A stretch of 64,000 nt of DNA, taken from NCBI GenBank assembly GCA_038049695.1, contig CP142451.1:125523501-125587500 (forward strand). The letters are read 5' to 3'. The notes under the pieces were generated by a model that saw nothing but the letters and a program-made list of their open reading frames with translations, was not told where the DNA came from and ran no database searches. Source of the DNA: Cinnamomum chago (lineage: Eukaryota > Streptophyta > Magnoliopsida > Laurales > Lauraceae). The translations under genes and the position numbers were made by a program. This document shows positions 2,991 to 44,643 of the stretch, one piece after another. Within the stretch, counting starts at the first letter, position 1; every line of letters starts with the position of its first letter.

Positions 2991-4803
2991 ACAAAATTTG
3001 GTAGTGAGTTATTACGGTCGTGTAAGACCATGGGCCAGACACAATATATGGAAGAATTAAGAGTCACTTTACATGCTGTGGATATAAATCCAACCAATAC
3101 TTTTCTTCATCAGCTCAAACCTTGACATTAAAGTTTTCAGGATGCACTTGCTTGATAGTAAAGCAGATCTCATCAGAATAAGAAGGAAAAGCTCCTTTGG
3201 AAATGGCAGGGAAGAATCATGTCTATAAGCCATTGTCCCCATGAGATGCGTACCCTCAATGTCATTGGAGGAAAAAGGATGGCTGTCAGCTTGGCAAGCC
3301 AAAGGCACTGAGTCCACCTGATTCAAGGGTGAGGTCTATTTTTCATCCAATGGGAAGACTTATACTTTGGACCCCTACAAGAACCACAGAGACCATGTTG
3401 TGCCACACTTTGAAAACTTAGATATGGTTGAGTGGACTCAGGTTGACCATAAAAACAAGTTCTCAGCTACAAGCTTATGCGTGTTCATGGGCCTGTCTGG
3501 CCATGTTGGACCATAAACCTTATCCAAACCCAGCCCTTCGAGCCCAATATTCAGCTCCAGGATTAGGCACATGGGCCATGAAACAAGGCCTGGGCCCAGC
3601 CCATTTATGCAAAATATATACACCCTTTGTGTTAAATTTGTCTGGTTGGCAGGGCCTTTTAAGTGTATGCAGGCCTGGGTCCTCCCATTTAATTACTGAA
3701 CCAGACAGTTTTCCATTATTCTCTTTATATTTGATATACTTTGCATGTGTTCAACTCAATTTGCTTGGTCAATCTTCTATCTACAGTAAGTCTTGAATTT
3801 TTTGCTGGTTTACATTACAATGTTGATAAATGTGGCACCTAGTGTTTGTGTCCTTGATGGCAACCACCCATTCCAATAGATAGTATAGATGAACAAAGTC
3901 AGAATAACAAGATAAGTGAACCAAAAAAAAAAAAAAGAGAACTAGGAGCACATGAAAGGTATCTAAAGAGTCATGAATCTAAAGAGTGATCATGACTTCT
4001 TTCATACAAAAGTCAGAGATACATAAAACACATGAGGAAATGTCCTAGTTGTGCAGGTTATATTCACAATGAGTCAATGACTGATATGCAGGGTCTGCTT
4101 CATAAATTCATTAGGAATGGTTAAACAAATCTAGTTACACTTCAATAGAAGTTGATTCCACCAGCTAGTTAGACAGTAATGTATATACCACATTATTTTA
4201 CATTCTTTTCTTTTTGTATTTTGATCGTATAATATTTTACACGTGATTAATAACGAGTGAGGATTAAAAACCCCGGGGTGCCACTAGCTAATTATAAAGG
4301 GCTGGCCTCTAGAAGATGAGGACCCAATAACAAGTGATGGATTAAAAACGATCAAAGAGATAAAATAAAAGCCCACTGTGCACTTACGTGGGGCCATTTT
4401 AAATGTTAGATAATGAAAAAGAGAGCCTATGAATTAGCTATTTATAAAAAGTAGACGGAGAAAAACAGCTTGTGAAGTTAAATCTTAAAAAAAAAAAAAA
4501 GGAATAAATGTAGCAAACATGCACCCCAATTTAATTAGACCAAAAGACATCAAATGTGCAATTGAAATAAAAGAAAATTAGAAACCTTTATGATGATGGC
4601 TTTTGATTGGGCGTAAAGACAATCAATTACTTGACACCCACTAAGCTTATTCTCCTCTCAATTGATAAGGGTTAGTGGGCCCCACAAGCACTCTTCATGT
4701 TTAAAAATATTTTCATAGGGATCCGTATTCATTGTTTGTTTCATATGATCACACCAATTCCCTCATTCATTCTGCCCTGTGACTCTCTGTCTTTCCACTT
4801 ACT

Positions 4804-4812
4804 CTACATATA
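4804..4812 (+). promoter_or_regulatory. TATA-like box of RCC1-repeat gene
   Basis: ACATATAAC lies about 100 bases before the ATG at 4909, in a CT-rich leader-like stretch. Position and sequence fit a plant TATA box; inferred only. Confidence 0.35.
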
Positions 4813-4908
4813 ACAAACAAATAAGAAGACACAGCTCCAAACTCCCGAGTATATCTTCAGCTTGTTTCCTCTCTCATCTTCCCAACTCAGCTTCACAGCT
4901 CCTCTCTC

Positions 4909-7900
4909 ATGGCTTCTGAATCAATAAACCCCATCATCTTAGCATGGTCTGAGCTCTCATATCTCTCTCTCTCTCTCTTTTTGTATATGTTTATCTTCTT
5001 CTTCTGCTTCTTCTCTCTGAATATATACATGTGGGTTTTGTGACAGGGGCTCAGGAGAGGATGGGCAGCTGGGGATTGGAAACACAGAAGAGAAGGACTG
5101 GGTCTGCAGCCTCAAGGCTCTAGAGAACCAGAGAGTCTCTGCAGTGGTTGCAGGAAGCAGAAACTCCCTTGCTATCTGTGAAGATGGAAAGGTCTCTTTT
5201 TTCTTTTTTTTTCTTTTTTTTTTTTTTCCTATTCTATTCTACGATTCTATCTTCTTTCACTAATACGGTTTCTGGGGTTGTTGTGATTATCGATTTATCA
5301 GCTCTTTACTTGGGGTTGGAACCAAAGGGGTACTCTGGGTCACCCCCAAGGGTCAAAGATTGAGAGCATTCCCTCCCAAGTTAAAGCCCTTGCCAATGTC
5401 AAGATTGTTCAGGTTAGTTCCTATATCTTTATAATCATCATCCCATCTATCTGGGGTTGTTTTTGGGTGTCTGTAAGTACTTCAGGCTTGTTTACAGAAT
5501 GCTAGAGAAGGCTGTTTAGTTAATGGTAATGAATCTTATGGTGTTAGGATTCATGACCTGATGGTAGAATTTTATGACAGTTGGGTGGTTATAAGCTGTT
5601 TGATCTATGGTTTATATCGATAAAAGTTGTGATAGTTCAGATAATTATGAATTTTTTACTGGTGAAATTTTGTGAATGTTGTTCATCAAATTATTCTTTG
5701 ATTTAGGATTTACTGATTTGTTTTCCCTTTTGCAATTATAGGCAGCTATTGGTGGTTGGCATTGTCTGGCTGTAGATGATGAAGGCAGAGCCTATGCATG
5801 GGGTATCATACTTGTCATTTCACTTGCTAGTAGCCTGCCTTCTTGTGAAATTGCAAGTCCCGAATTTCCGTTTTCACTGGATAATTAAGTGGTTACATTT
5901 TGCACAGGTGGGAATGAGTATGGGCAGTGTGGCGAAGAACCCGAGCGAAAAGATGACAGTGGCAAGCCTTTGAAAAGGGATATTGTAATTCCTCAACGCT
6001 GTGCCCCAAGGTTTTCTGTTCGCCAGGTGATCAAATTCAATGGATTGTTCTCTATGATGGGATGGTTTGGATTAATGTATTTGAGGCTGAGTAGTTATTG
6101 TCTTTGCTAATAATTCTTAGCTTAGATGAATTACAATGTTGATATTATCATCCTGCCAATTGGATGTGGCCAATGTGTACCAAGGGTACACATTCTTGAA
6201 AAGAGGGGTAAATAGGCCCGTATGACCTTTGATGTGTGATTATTGCACCTTTTTTCTTATAGCCTGGCTTTTTAAGGCCTGTCTTTAGTTTACTTGCTAT
6301 CAGTAACATAGAAGGAAAAAAAACATTTCCATGTGACTTTGACTAAAACAGAGGCCATGTTTATGGGCTCTGCAATGATAAATTAAGACAGGAAAATGGT
6401 GCATTCCATTCATCAAATATATTTGCTACCCAAGTTGTTATGTCTGGCATGCAAATAAGACAATCTAAAAGAATCAAGAAGGTTTTCTTTACATACTAGT
6501 TCGACTAGTTTCTTTTCTTGGGATATCATTCTAAGCCACTTTCTTATTTTGCTTTAATTTGAAGCAATTCTTTGTAATGGGCAATGGTTACATGGTTTAT
6601 AATGGGATAGTTTCTATTTGCTACAGAATATTCCTTCTGCATGTTGTTTGTTTGTGGAATTCAGCTAGTGGATCGTAGATTTCAATCAACTAATCATCAC
6701 ACTTGTGCTCATATTTCTTGTCAAACAGAGGGATATCCACCGTTAAACGCTTGTCTGTTTTACATACTTTTGTTGATTGCATATCAGGTAGCTGCTGGGG
6801 GTACACACTCTGTGGTGCTCACACGGGATGGGCATGTATGGACATGGGGCCAACCATGGCCCCCTGGAGATATGTATGTCTCTTGCCTTTGTTTATTTGT
6901 TGAACCTCCTGGTGTGACCTGACCTTTTATCTGAGCTTGACCTTCCTATCTTACGATATGATTAGGTTTTCCTTATACATGATATTGTTTTTTGTCTTAG
7001 AAAACAGATATCTACTCCTGTACGTGTACATGGTCTTGAAAAGGTCAGGCTTATTGCTGTTGGTGCATTTCATAATTTGGCTCTCCTTGAGGATGGAATG
7101 CTATGGGCATGGGGCAATAATGAATATGGACAACTTGGAACTGGAGATACTCAACCAAGAACGCATCCTATCCCTGTTCAGGGGTTGTCTGGTGTTACTT
7201 TGGTTTGTTTCATCAACTCATTCCTCCTTTTTTTAATCTCTTGAATTGCTGTTCCACTCTCCACCTTCTGTATGTCAATTTCCAAATGGAAGTAACAGCT
7301 ATGGTTAAACTAATAAGACATTTCTTGCTGTAAAATTCATTTGAATTTCGATGGCCAAAATGCAAGATTTTACTGCGAAAAATATTCACAACAAAATCTG
7401 GTTGTCTGGATAGTTTCCAGACTAAAATAGACATGGTAAACTATGGTAAACTTGCAACTTGCGAGAAACTTATGGAAGAATCATTTCATTTTGAATAAAT
7501 TATTTAGAAGAATGGGACAAGCTTGGATATGGGGAAGAGATTAAACTTAGTTATCTCTAAAAGAAAATAGTCTACTGGTCTCTGATTATCAAAAATTGCA
7601 TCTCGTTTGTGACTCTTTTCCCTTGTGTAATCAATGCCTCTTAAAAGAGTGGGAACTGCTCTGCAAGGTTGGTAGGTCAGGGAGAAAAAAGAACAATGTC
7701 TTGAGTAAATAAGGTTTATTTATAAGTGGATTTGTCACCCTGAAGATGCAAAGAGAGGGATTGTGAATTATTCAAAATCCTGATAATATCGTCTCTTTAA
7801 TAAAATTTAACCCTTGTCTGATTAAAAAAAAAAAAAGATGGAGACACACAAGGGGACCCTTCTCCTTTGGTATGGCATGATTAAATATGTGAAAATGTGA

Positions 7901-38643: not shown

Positions 38644-40925
38644 AATATCGAACGCAAAAGAGGATTGAATCAAACGAGAGATTGAGGAGGAGGCGGTGGT
38701 TTTCGCGCTCTTTTCTTTCTCTCTGTTTTCTTCTTGTTTCGAAGGCAGGGAGAGAAAGATGCAGGGCCATCGATTTTTTCTATTGCTTGTTTTGAGAGAA
38801 GACGGTGAGAGGGAGAGATTGGAAAGTTGGAATGGAATAGAACTCTGCGCGCGGAAACGCGAACATGATCCTAGCCGTTGATTAAATTTGGCGGAAAATT
38901 CTCTCACTCTTCTTGAATACCTTGTAAGTCTTATCAAGACACGATGTTAAAGTGGGGCCCACTTTATTGAAAGTAGCATTCCCACTGACTTTTCTGAAAG
39001 ATTTGAAATTTTCCCGTTCACATTTCACAATCCTAAATCGCTGAGGATTTTGGAAGGGGAAATTCTTGGGGCACTTTTGGTATAACAGGAGGAATTTCCT
39101 ATTCAATGGACTTCTTCATTCTTTTAGAACAATATTATTGTCTCTCATAATCTTTCAAAAGAGAAATTACTGCATTCTAGGTTTGATAAATACTTAGAAT
39201 GAGTCACTTTTGTAGCTTAAATACTTCTTTTTGCCTTCGTAGATTTATAAAATTCGATAAGAGGAGGTGGAGACGGAGAAATCAATGGAAGAGAGGATTT
39301 TTCATTGATTTGGAGGATTTGAAAAATACTCTCACTTTTCCTTTTTGCACCCAAATATAGGTTTTCCTCTTAATCAAGTAAAACCAGCTCCTAGGACATT
39401 ACCCAAACACGTCCGAGGATTTTTAGATCTGACCCTCTTTGATAGGATTTAGAAATTCTATGTTGTGTAGATTTAACCACCGGGACTAATTTTTCTCGTA
39501 TGTGGGCATGGACATCGATTTGAATTGCTGTGCTATAATAATTGTAAATAAAAAATTAAGATTTTAAATCCACCTAAAGAATACTCATTTTAACTTGGTT
39601 GGATAGAGTCATGGAGCAAGGTGAATTTTTTCATCTGGACTCTTTAATCACCTATTCATAATAGATATATATTAAAATTTGAATTCACATAAAGAAGCTT
39701 AACAAAAGTGAATTCTGAATTGATTGATAGAGCTTATCTCTTGAAATTGATTTGAGATCCAATTTTTCAAATCGATTTGAGATTAGAATCTAATTTTGCA
39801 ATCGATTAGCAAATCGGACTCCAATTTCAACATCGATGCCTACGTCTATAATATATATTAATTCTGAAGTTTGTGCAAAGATGTATGTTAAAATTTGCAA
39901 ATTCATCCCATGTTATCAAATAGATACTAAACAAACACCTTCCAAAGGAGAGAGACTCTAAAGTAGGGCCCCACTTATCAAAAGTTTGAGCAAATCAATT
40001 TGAATATTTGTTCTCCTTATGATTATATGATAGCATGACTAATGATTGATCGTATTGTTAATAAATAAATGCACAATCTTCGCATATAGGAGAAGGAGAG
40101 GCAGAGAGGGTGCTCACTTTTTGGGTCTCTCTCTCTCCTCTTTTGGTTATATTGGGCAAATGATCTTGGTGGTGATACTTTTAAGTAGAGGACTCGAGGA
40201 TCAAAACATGTCCATTTATGTAAAACTAAGGTACCAGCACCACTCAACCCTTCGTGTGTTGGCACTTCTTATCTGTTGAATTGACATTGACCAATACTCA
40301 TCTGGCATGTTGCATGAACAAGTTTTTAGATGGAGCTAAGGAATTTCAAATCCAGATTACTCAGAATTTTCATTTACTATATTTTCGACCTTTTTATTTC
40401 GACAAAAACATCATTTCCAGCAGTTCTGAACGTGAAATTTGGAAAAAGAATAAAATTAAAATAAAATGAACTTCAACCATCTCAAAAACAATTGAAGCTC
40501 TGCCAGTCAAGATTCAACAATAAAATTGTTAGCATTAGAGGACTCGCATCTTCATTAGGCCCATTAGGTTTTGTGGACCCATTTCAATGTATTTGCTTTA
40601 TTTAATTAGTTGTTTTAGTCATGATGATAGACAAAAATGCACTGTAAAAAGTCCCTTTACATCAAACATCATAACATGAAAAGGGAGATGAAAATGCCTC
40701 TCACTTCTGGATTCATGAATGAACTTACAACATCAGTCATCATTTGATGTATCAGATGAATTTCAAGGTTTTCCTCACTTCCATAGTTAGAATTCACATG
40801 GTGTTTTGGATATTTGCATGATATTGATGTACATAAAGTATATACAGCTTCTTATATACACATTGGTGTGAAGTATCTCATATGCCACATAGAGTAGTCT
40901 CATTGAGATGAGCCAAGAAGATGCC
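38640..40925. other. Intergenic region upstream of the ACD11-like gene
   Basis: No gene supported. Repeated GAGGATTT words around 39000-39440 resemble those at 23170-23380 and suggest a shared decayed repeat. A SINE-like unit (minus) lies at about 40187-40270. The region near 40860-40925 should be the 3' flank of the HMA gene. Confidence 0.4.
40187..40270 (-). mobile_element. SINE-like fragment
   Basis: Minus strand: GGGTTGAGTGGTGCTGGTAC (A-box-like), then TTTTGATCCTCGAGTCC (B-box-like) about 40 bases on. Related to the unit at 2880-2990. Confidence 0.4.
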
Positions 40926-41283
40926 TCATTGCCTCTGATCATCATCAATGTTCCTGCTGAGCTCTTGGATCTCCATAATCTCCACTCGGCGTCTGACCTT
41001 CTTCCGTATTTTTATTGCTATCTCTGCTGGATCAAACACCCCGTAGACACAAACTCTGTTCTGTTTTTTATCTATCATATGGTTCTCGAGCTCTTCAACA
41101 AGAAAACCCATCAGTGAGTCTCTGATTAAAATCCCATGTAAAGACCAACAAAGTAATGACATCTCTGCTGTCTTTTAAGGCCTCACCTTTCATCTTGAGA
41201 AGGATTCTTCTTATTCTCCTGCAGCAGCCATTGCAGTCGATGTTGATCCGCAGCACCACGTAACAACGCTGCAAAAATCCCAT
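40926..41283 (-). CDS. Small heavy-metal-associated (HMA) domain protein
   Basis: Two minus-strand exons, 41283-41187 and 41092-40926 (TGA), give 87 aa. It is one HMA (ferredoxin-like) domain: VVLRINIDCNGCCRRIRRIL carries the metal-binding CxxC (CNGC). It continues ENHMIDKKQNRVCVYGVFDP and AEIAIKIRKKVRRRVEIMEI. The end, DDDQRQ, has no CaaX box, so it is not an isoprenylated HIPP. Such proteins are probable copper/zinc chaperones; the metal cannot be told. The start is uncertain: GTTTTTGCAG-like sequence sits right before CGTTGTTAC, so a further 5' exon could replace MGFLQ, and an in-frame ATG also exists at 41307. Confidence 0.8.
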
Positions 41284-41441
41284 GAGAAATTCCAAATTAA
41301 CATGCATTGAGTATCTATCTATCTATCATGTGAGTTGTGGTGGTGAAGGTGAAAGTGGGCCTAGAAGAGGATTGGAGGGATGAAAAAGGGGATCAAATGA
41401 ATAGAGGGTGAATCTTTATGCCCAAGGTTGTATGCATATCA

Positions 41442-42277
41442 AAAAAACAAGAGGAATTTACAGCGCAGGTCTCTATAGGACCTCACACCATTCTTGAGGT
41501 CTCAAAAACACCGTATTTATGGATAAGGTCCTCAAGGTGCGGTTTTTTTTTTTTTTTTCCGTCGTTTAGCGATTGGTTGATATCGACCATTCTGCGGAAA
41601 CCCAATTAGAAATTAGGTTTTTTAGGAGGAAGAAGAGGGGAGGAGAGCAGCTAGGCACGTTGAACACATTGGACCTGACCACCTGATCCCGCCATATTCG
41701 ACCCAAACGGGTATACACTATGAGGTTCTAGGGAAAAACCTCATTTCAATCGGAACAAGGTTAAGTAAAAGAAAAGGGAAAGGAGTGGGAGGTTTGAGAA
41801 TGAATGAAATCAGTCAATCAATCAGACTCCTCCTCCTCCTCCTCCTCCTCCCAGGTGCGAGTGCAGGTGCAGGTGGTTTTGGACCTCCAAGATGGCATTG
41901 GCAGAATCTTTGAGCCGCTCTGCTTCCTCTTCCGTGAGGTGCACGTGGGTGACGGCCTAGACCCCCCGCGGTCAAGCTAAGCTGGGAGGTTGAGGAAGAC
42001 CTCTCTGGTGTCCATCCCATAGAATCCCTTGGCGAGGACAGAGACGGGGTGGATGCGAGGACTCCTATGCAACACCACCCCTCCCCTCTTGTCCCTCCTA
42101 GAAAAACCCAATTTCTATTTGGGTTCCCATAGAATGGTCGATATCGACCAATCGCTAAACGACAAAAACGGACCTTGATGACCTTATCTATAAATACGGT
42201 ATGTCTGGGACCTCAAGAGTGGTATGGGTGGTATGGGGTCCTACGAGGACCTGCGCCGTAAATTCCTCAAAAAACAA
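41442..42277. mobile_element. Mutator-like element (Pack-MULE) carrying an LDH gene fragment
   Basis: The element spans 41451-42268. Its ends are inverted repeats of about 190 bp (41451-41642 and 42085-42268), starting GAGGAATTTAC and ending GTAAATTCCTC. They share CGTTTAGCGATTGGT and GATATCGACCATTCT-type blocks in opposite orientation. Both sides are flanked by the identical 9-mer AAAAAACAA (41442-41450; 42269-42277). Long TIRs with 9-bp duplications define MULEs. The interior has no transposase but holds a reverse-oriented piece of L-lactate dehydrogenase, which makes it a Pack-MULE-like element. Confidence 0.88.
41870..42060 (-). pseudogene. Captured L-lactate dehydrogenase C-terminal fragment
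   Basis: Minus strand encodes RIHPVSVLAKGFYGMD and EVFLNLPA, then a stop (41977-41979). In another frame it gives VTHVHLTEEEAERLKDSANA and ILEVQNHL. These are the consecutive C-terminal blocks of plant cytosolic LDH (HPVSVLAKGFYG ... LPA ... VTNVHLT/MTDEEA ... ILEVQ). A frameshift and two stops separate them, so it is not functional. A (GGA)n run at 41826-41850 follows the fragment. Confidence 0.85.
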
Positions 42278-44643
42278 TGTCCAAGGTTGTCACCTATTTG
42301 CGTCAAAAGTTTATACTGCATCTGTAACTGGGAAAAACAAAAGGATGTGATAGGACAAGGCTTAATGATGATAACGACAACAGCAACGATGATGCTAGTA
42401 ATAAGGTTTGGTTACATATCTATATAGGTTCCGACCCAAGGACCCATACCGACCCATGGGTTTTAAAACCTATCCTATTGACTAGAAAGTACTTAACTCA
42501 CACTCTAAAACCATTGGATAGAATGTAGCAAGAATAAAAAATGATTGGATAGAAGTAAAACTTGACATGCCCCTATCCTCAATGTCCCCTTAAAATCTCA
42601 TTACCCCAATAATTACCATAGCCTAGGGACCCCTCACAGAGCCCACCACACAAGATCATGCATGACCCATATATATCAAAGTTGTTGATTTGATTGCATG
42701 AAAAGAGGTCAAATTATGAGCTTGCCTTTTGTGCCATGGAGTGGAGAATTTCTGGGTGACGTTTGCCTGCCAATCAATTGTGTCTGCCAGAAAGGGCGTG
42801 ATAAAGGTATGAAATGTGTTTCAGAAAGAATCATTAGGTGTTTGGGTTTTCTTTGGAATTGTTTTATGTCTTGTGGAATCTTGTTCTATTGAAGCTGATG
42901 GAGAAAGTAAGCGGCTGTTCGGCATTGGTTTTAACTTATTCTCAAATCTCTAGTATTGACAAAGGGAAGAGGAAAGGAATACGTACATGTTACCTTGCCG
43001 GCTTGCCTGGAGCCTGCTGCAAACAAAAAAAAAAACATGGAATATTGGTAATAGTTGCATTTGCTTCTTTATTAACTTGAGTTGCCAACTGAAGAGTTAT
43101 TATCTTCCACTTCCTAAGAACAATGGGGTCCGTCATATCTAGAACTCAGAAATTAACCTGCAAGCATGACTTTGGCCATCTCAACAAACAGCCTTAAAAG
43201 AGAGTTACTGTTGAGAATACTTAGTTTTTGTGCAATCTGAGCATATTACTTAGTGCCTGCAGTGAAAAGGTTTCCACATGATTTAACCCAATGATCCTGG
43301 CAAGTTTTTTTAAGTCTTCCAAGTTCAAGGGTTGTAGATTATGCATAAAATTAATGATGGCAAATATCTGGAATAGTGTGAAATTAGAATCGATACAAAC
43401 TTCATGGAGGTCCGCTTGCGCAAAGAGATTAGATTGATCAAAGGTGGAACCCTTCTATTAAAAAAGTCAAAAAAAAAAAAGATGAAAGTGAGTCATTTTA
43501 ACAATTTACCCATACATTAGGTTCTAGATTAACAAACAGGGCTAAAAAAACCATAATAGCCTGAGCCACCAAATACATATATCAATGCTTCAAAAATCTC
43601 CAATCTCACAGGCTCCTTCACATCTAAATGGGAAGCATAAAATATTGCAGATTAACAGTTACTTTTTATTTTACACATGTCGTTTGTATCAAAGCTTTAT
43701 TCAAGGCAATGGTCGCTATCAAAATAATTTGAATCCTGCAGAACATTTACATAAGGGCACCTTTTTATCTTTCAACCATGTTGAGGGTCTATGAATATTG
43801 AAAAGTCGACGTGCATATGGACATTGCTAGATTATTAAAAAGGTAGTGGGTGATGTCCACCTCACATGTGCACATGCACAGGGGATTGATTGCCCATGCC
43901 CACCGGCCCAGCCAATATCCTCATGGGCCCCCTTTTTTTTTTATCTTTTCAGTGGAAGACAGCAATCAAATAATGCCATGGAAAAAGCACCCACCGACAC
44001 AATTTTGAACCTCTTGCACGGCACTTCTTGGTGTGAGTCTGTAGATTATGAATGAAAATTCAATCCTAGGCACATTAGTCATCCATAAAAGATCAGTTTT
44101 GGATTTATATATTGAAATAATTGCTTGAGGGTCATCATTATAATGAATAATGTGAACAATCAGAGGAGAATGGTTTTTTTTTTAAATGATTAAGAGAAGT
44201 AAAAGAGGAATGCGATCAGATTATGAATGAAAAAGGCTCACCACCATTAGATTAGTCCAGCTGTATGAATGTCTACAAAAAGAGGAAGATCACCATCAAA
44301 AGATACCCAACCTTGGGAAAAGAATAAAGATCTTTCCTATCATTGGCTTGTTCAACAAATTCAGTTAACCTATGCTGCTCTCTCCACAATAAACACACTC
44401 CTCATTCCAGTAGATTGGGGATCTACTCCATCCATGGTGGCTTCTATAAAACATACAAGTACAAAGATTGTTATACACTCATCCCAATTACATGAAGATG
44501 GCATGGCCTAAAAAGGTGGCCCCAATTAAAGCTGAAGGATGACAAAGGTTACAGAACACAGGGTAGAAGGGGGATCTCGCCTACAGCACAATCCTCGCCT
44601 CCGTCTCTAAGATTCTAATGTTAATAGAGAATTACAGCACACA
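42278..44643. other. Intergenic region between the MULE and the BAH-agenet gene
   Basis: No gene supported. CCGACCCAAGGACCCATACC and the words after it at 42428-42470 resemble 50210-50265 and hint at a decayed shared repeat. The last few hundred bases before 44644 should be the 3' UTR of the BAH-agenet gene. Confidence 0.4.

Follow-up and report, generated by a model that had tools for sequence, protein, structure and literature searches.

We identified an 818-bp element at positions 41451-42268 of a 64-kb window of the Cinnamomum chago genome (the whole stretch of DNA analysed here, contig C1:125523501-125587500), which we assign, with a probability of about 0.95, to the non-autonomous Mutator-like elements of the Pack-MULE kind, with a history of one capture, amplification to at least five sites and subsequent decay. 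An ancestral element with the same terminal inverted repeats (TIRs) would have taken up a copy of about 395 bp of one lactate dehydrogenase (LDH) gene, from the end of its exon 2 across the stop codon into the first part of the 3′UTR, beside a short stretch still present in other subfamilies of the TIR family. The resulting chimaera would then have moved within a short time span, presumably with the help of a MULE transposase supplied in trans; its landing sites number at least five and include intron 1 of a predicted HMA gene. Every copy has decayed since this amplification.

Structure of the element and origin of the captured fragment

A sequence-only reading of the window had placed the feature at 41442-42277. 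This span located the element correctly and also took in its target-site duplications (TSDs), without which the boundaries are refined to 41451-42268. The identical 9-bp duplication described in that reading is indeed exact (9/9), with AAAAAACAA present at 41442-41450 and 42269-42277, directly outside the termini GAGGAATTTAC at 41451 and GTAAATTCCTC at 42268. Inverted termini of ∼190 bp had also been described, and an inverted-repeat search together with TIR-TIR alignment delimited a left TIR of about 185-190 bp (41451-41640, plus strand) and a right TIR (42085-42268, minus strand). The two TIRs, about 185 bp long, were identical at 158 of 186 aligned letters with gaps set aside (76% identity by BLAST), and their local alignment scored 180, as compared with a maximum of 28 for 500 shuffles of the right TIR. 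When the left TIR was aligned to 500 random segments of the window, scores did not exceed 36 except for a single segment at 190, which most likely overlapped the left TIR itself.

The window TSD alone is weak evidence, because its 9-mer is low-complexity, A-rich and occurs nine times in the 64 kb (five times on the plus and four times on the minus strand). It gains credibility from the sister copies described below, which have 9-bp duplications of their own at the same boundary. The flanking 9-mers do not belong to any longer local duplication. An imperfect 14-nt direct repeat (93%) was also observed near the insertion (41418-41431 and 42277-42290), and, as its two units are not equally far from the element's ends, we regard it as belonging to the target site.

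The insert between the TIRs (41662-42057, reverse strand) derives from an LDH gene on contig C7 (C7:63918788-63919182), to which it is 85% identical at the DNA level, and extends from the end of exon 2 past the stop codon into the 3′UTR. Counted in the parent, the captured part spans the last 231 coding nucleotides, stop codon included, followed by about 163 nt of 3′UTR. In line with the internal reverse-strand LDH fragment reported earlier, the LDH reading is split over frames with stops. When compared with the PDB, a 27-aa piece of it matched L-lactate dehydrogenases, with a best E of 3.6e-4; the 36 distinct sequences at E ≤1 include a ubiquitin-conjugating-enzyme variant. The expected LDH match is thus present at both the protein and the DNA level. 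Pfam searches with two short LDH pieces of the element returned no LDH family, one piece being without hits and the other giving two irrelevant weak hits.

A genome search using the insert alone yielded six candidates. All were scored and all matched, five being the elements and the sixth the C7 LDH gene. This parent gene shows no TIR match and has two exons, both with open frames (L029:3676-4431 and 4531-5016), which encode the Ldh_1_N and Ldh_1_C domains (Ldh_1_C in exon 2 at 1.3e-23, Pfam). Besides the exon-2 end, stop codon and 3′UTR, the elements also have the poly-glycine tail of the C7 gene. Origin from a second LDH gene, on contig C6, was considered and rejected, as this gene has no glycine tail and not one 21-mer of the window element occurs in its 8-kb stretch. 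In the alignment, both LDH junctions were common to all five elements, which argues for a single capture. Between the captured part and the right TIR lies a short non-LDH stretch (42058-42084), whose sister form is CCCTATGCAACACCACCCC and from which the window copy differs by one base. Of 16 other TIR-family elements tested, six (L043, L045, L048, L049, L051 and L052) have this sequence with 0-3 mismatches and L054 has it with four, and it is probably part of the recipient scaffold.

Sister copies, the TIR family and transposase candidates

Searching the genome (1.06 Gb in 14 contigs) with the whole element revealed four sister copies, on contigs C12 (82% identity), C7 (82%), C10 (78%) and C1 (75% over element positions 141-827, the left end being matched separately). 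All four carry the same captured LDH fragment with the same junctions as the window copy. The five copies are spread over four contigs; copy numbers given here are lower bounds. The sisters that the sequence-only reading had proposed to look for thus exist, at least four in number and with shared ends and both junctions. In the order listed above, their TSDs are TTCTTTAAA (9/9), TTTAGAGCT/TTTATGGCT (7/9), TAGTAAAAT (9/9) and TAGAATCAA/TCGAATCAA (8/9). Hence, a 9-bp TSD flanks all five copies, three times exactly, once with one mismatch and once with two. Summed over all copies, left and right TSD letters agreed at 42 of 45 positions, as compared with 12-21 of 45 in 12 shifted frames, for which the right flank was moved by 1 to 6 bases either way. 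With the parent gene found, five copies and 9-bp TSDs, the proposed Pack-MULE with a captured LDH C-terminus is borne out.

Globally, the 23-nt terminus was found 57 + 45 times in the genome with up to three mismatches, and the reversed-pattern control 0 + 0 times. We fetched 20 stretches, chosen from the matches of the whole-element search. Using strict end motifs, a 9-bp TSD with at most one mismatch was present in six of them (L041, L044, L045, L047, L048 and L050). The interiors of the family fall into several groups. One contains a second captured host gene, LBD (LOB-domain), including the start of its coding region, with Pfam LOB matches of 3e-31 in L047 and 2e-10 in L050. The LBD fragment was seen in L047:708-1119, with matches at C1:17159959-17160519 and eight other places. 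A search with the LBD interior gave 19 matches, and nine places (query included) were 85-100% identical over at least 380 nt; TIRs were inspected in four of these nine (L046, L047, L050 and L054). The likely parent of the fragment is at C2:88233547-88233954, an LBD gene that is 82% identical to this interior and has an open frame of 268 aa. Another group (L055-L059 and L072) is characterized by an acidic, serine-rich reading frame, as exemplified by L055:106-1104, where it is open for 333 aa and runs into the TIR. Pfam searches with pieces of this frame from L055, L057 and L058 left two without a hit and gave a meaningless CDC45 match (E 0.49) for the third; the frame is reminiscent of NAF1. 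The L072 element (L072:6798-8149) has an exact 9-bp TSD, TATTATTAT, and L042 includes a zf-RVT stretch (Pfam 1.8e-17). In L041 (C9:68747700-68751000), we observed TIR-family elements in tandem, with units 84-89% identical and repeated partial TIRs that may be compared with the multiple-TIR MULEs of PMC3310237.

The window element is non-autonomous. At 818 bp, its longest overlapping stop-to-stop frame is 132 aa, too short for a MULE transposase. We scored 150 of the 3015 first-look genome candidates for the transposase domain PF10551; none of these 150 lay in the window, and comparing them by eye with the listed termini revealed no autonomous partner with these TIRs. A candidate partner at C1:129220160 (PF10551, 508 aa), located a few kb inward of a listed terminus, was rejected after fetching, since its transposase frames (L072:2521-4770) lie outside the L072 element. 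Another PF10551 transposase (C1:36786796) is 3.8 kb away from a terminus, on its outer side.

Age, decay and the landing site in an HMA gene

We compared the insert of the window copy (W) with those of its four sisters (S2-S5) and with the parent. K2P distances were 0.111-0.169 between elements and 0.108-0.154 between element and parent. Copies and parent form a star, with about 5-11% change per insert branch (W 0.063, S2 0.050, S4 0.091, S3 0.096, S5 0.105 and parent 0.063 substitutions per site) and internal supports of 27-43% for the insert and 51-55% for the whole element in the five copies. Whole-element branches measured 0.073 for W and 0.185 for S5, the longest. The insertion had been read as fairly recent, which does not agree with a W branch of 0.063 (insert) to 0.073 (whole element) and with TIRs that differ at 15% of aligned letters. 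Among 209 gap-free coding sites, only two set all five elements apart from the parent and thus fall on the stem, from which we infer that amplification followed soon after capture; the individual elements have 8 (W), 8 (S2), 17 (S3), 16 (S4) and 19 (S5) coding changes. Two indels common to W, S2, S3 and S5 are absent from S4 and the parent, suggesting that amplification may have occurred in at least two steps.

Changes were counted only at sites where at least four of the six rows agree. The parent's own changes comprise 14 in 163 UTR sites, two at codon position 3 and none at positions 1 and 2, whereas element changes occur at all three codon positions (positions 1/2/3: W 2/3/3, S2 4/2/2, S3 4/6/7, S4 6/7/3, S5 6/5/8). 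The captured copies therefore look like pseudogene fragments that decay without sign of coding constraint and probably have no present function, and the parent is constrained. In S2, the captured coding part is still open in one frame, which we put down to chance or lesser decay. C>T/G>A changes made up 48-71% of all changes in the elements vs 31% in the parent, an excess that would be expected if the element copies were methylated.

Copies of this family could also act on their parent, with the element or its sisters making small RNAs against the LDH mRNA and the family serving as a trans-acting regulator. Exact matches to the LDH gene amount to 45 21-mers in W, with runs of up to 33 nt, and to 54 in S2; W has none in common with the C6 LDH locus. 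A small-RNA effect on LDH is thus possible. A plus-strand transcript of the element would be antisense to LDH, as had been pointed out before. This orientation is right, but the neighbouring HMA model reads the LDH piece in sense, and transcription of the HMA gene would thus yield the sense strand. Moreover, the captured copies show no sign of constraint, the other sisters have only 8 (S3), 17 (S4) and 12 (S5) LDH-matching 21-mers, and an Rfam search of 40800-42900 gave five matches under E 1, none at the cut-off, which we take as chance. We consider a regulatory role of the family very unlikely.

The element had been described as lying near an HMA gene. Such a gene is predicted here, but this wording understates the relation: on a gene model backed by paralogues, the element lies inside predicted intron 1. 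The predicted gene, on the reverse strand, has an 86-aa product and consists of exon 1 (42726-42737; ATGGCACAAAAG, 12 nt with a GC donor, from homology and splice consensus), intron 1 (41269-42725; GC-AG, 1457 nt, splice sites kept), exon 2 (41187-41268) and exon 3 with the stop codon (40926-41092). The element and one TSD make up 57% of intron 1. The product matched Pfam HMA with E 6.7e-5 and 23.6 bits, 1.2 below the curated cut-off of 24.8, and has CNGC as the CxxC motif of the domain. By itself, so short an exon with a GC donor would be open to doubt. It is backed by the paralogous HMA loci, because four of four (L068-L071) have ATGTCGCGAAAG followed by GCAAG, with the start 455-457 nt before an exon-2 motif; the sequence upstream of ATGTCGCGAAAG in these loci is similar too, at 75-76% for a length of about 150 nt. 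The motif scan was also passed by a second candidate for exon 1, at 44247, with which the element would still be in intron 1. The four paralogous loci are located on three contigs (C1:119465500, C2:80661700, C2:14832300 and C3:25886200, in the order L068-L071), and the last three match L068 at 97.6-98.9% identity for 1.3 to 5 kb. Our guess is that they represent a duplicate that was dispersed recently, with a transposon as its possible carrier.

Since the LDH piece is in sense to the predicted HMA gene and includes the LDH stop codon and part of the 3′UTR, the HMA gene might use the intronic element as an alternative exon or polyadenylation site. The frames are broken, however, and the splice sites of intron 1 are kept, which makes this use very unlikely. 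Also very unlikely is that an old dispersed family with one copy in an HMA intron still feeds small RNAs or a chimeric HMA-LDH transcript into the regulation of the C7 LDH gene; if true, this would link a metal-domain gene to fermentation. Finally, two unrelated TIR halves, or a foldback element or other TIR superfamily, around a processed LDH pseudogene have next to no chance of being correct: the captured part does lack an intron, but this says nothing for one exon and a 3′UTR, no poly-A tract is present at the LDH junction in the alignment, and five copies with shared junctions, both ends in common and 9-bp TSDs show that the halves belong to one element.

Comparison with known systems

Pack-MULEs are non-autonomous elements with a TSD of 9-11 bp, long TIRs (about 100-500 bp) and a fragment of a host gene. 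The element described here has a 9-bp TSD, TIRs of about 185 bp, an LDH fragment whose parent is in the genome, and no frame long enough for a MULE transposase. It is well supported that the family is a Pack-MULE of an ordinary, already known kind, and that the LDH-carrying family itself is a new member. Our literature search, which covered few subscription papers, found no paper joining Pack-MULE and lactate dehydrogenase, lactate dehydrogenase with Mutator-like and captured, or Pack-MULEs and magnoliid. The family offers a complete case in one genome, with a parent, a single capture, five copies of readable relative age and an intronic landing site, as well as a contrast between unconstrained captured copies and a constrained parent. 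It further illustrates that an exact target duplication can survive about 6-7% change in a Pack-MULE copy, and that one TIR family can hold the 3′ end of LDH and the start of the LBD coding region.

As compared with a plant L-lactate dehydrogenase gene, the source of the fragment, the captured copy is alike in its C-terminal end, stop codon and 3′UTR, but has a broken frame and includes neither the NAD-binding part nor the bulk of the C-terminal domain. In sacred lotus, 1,447 Pack-MULEs have been reported, likewise many gene-carrying Mutator-like elements in a non-grass plant, although no LDH family is named in the available text of that report (PMC4053705). The tomato Pack-MULE family PM-ZIBP (PMC3310237) resembles the LDH family in having long TIRs, TSDs of similar length (9-10 bp in the copies shown, 9 bp here), one captured and amplified gene fragment, and a parent still in the genome. 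PM-ZIBP comprises 14 copies, as compared with at least five here. In seven copies shown, outer TIR identity is 87-95%, vs 85% here with gaps set aside, which makes the LDH family older-looking, and unlike PM-ZIBP its captured fragment is the 3′ end of a gene.
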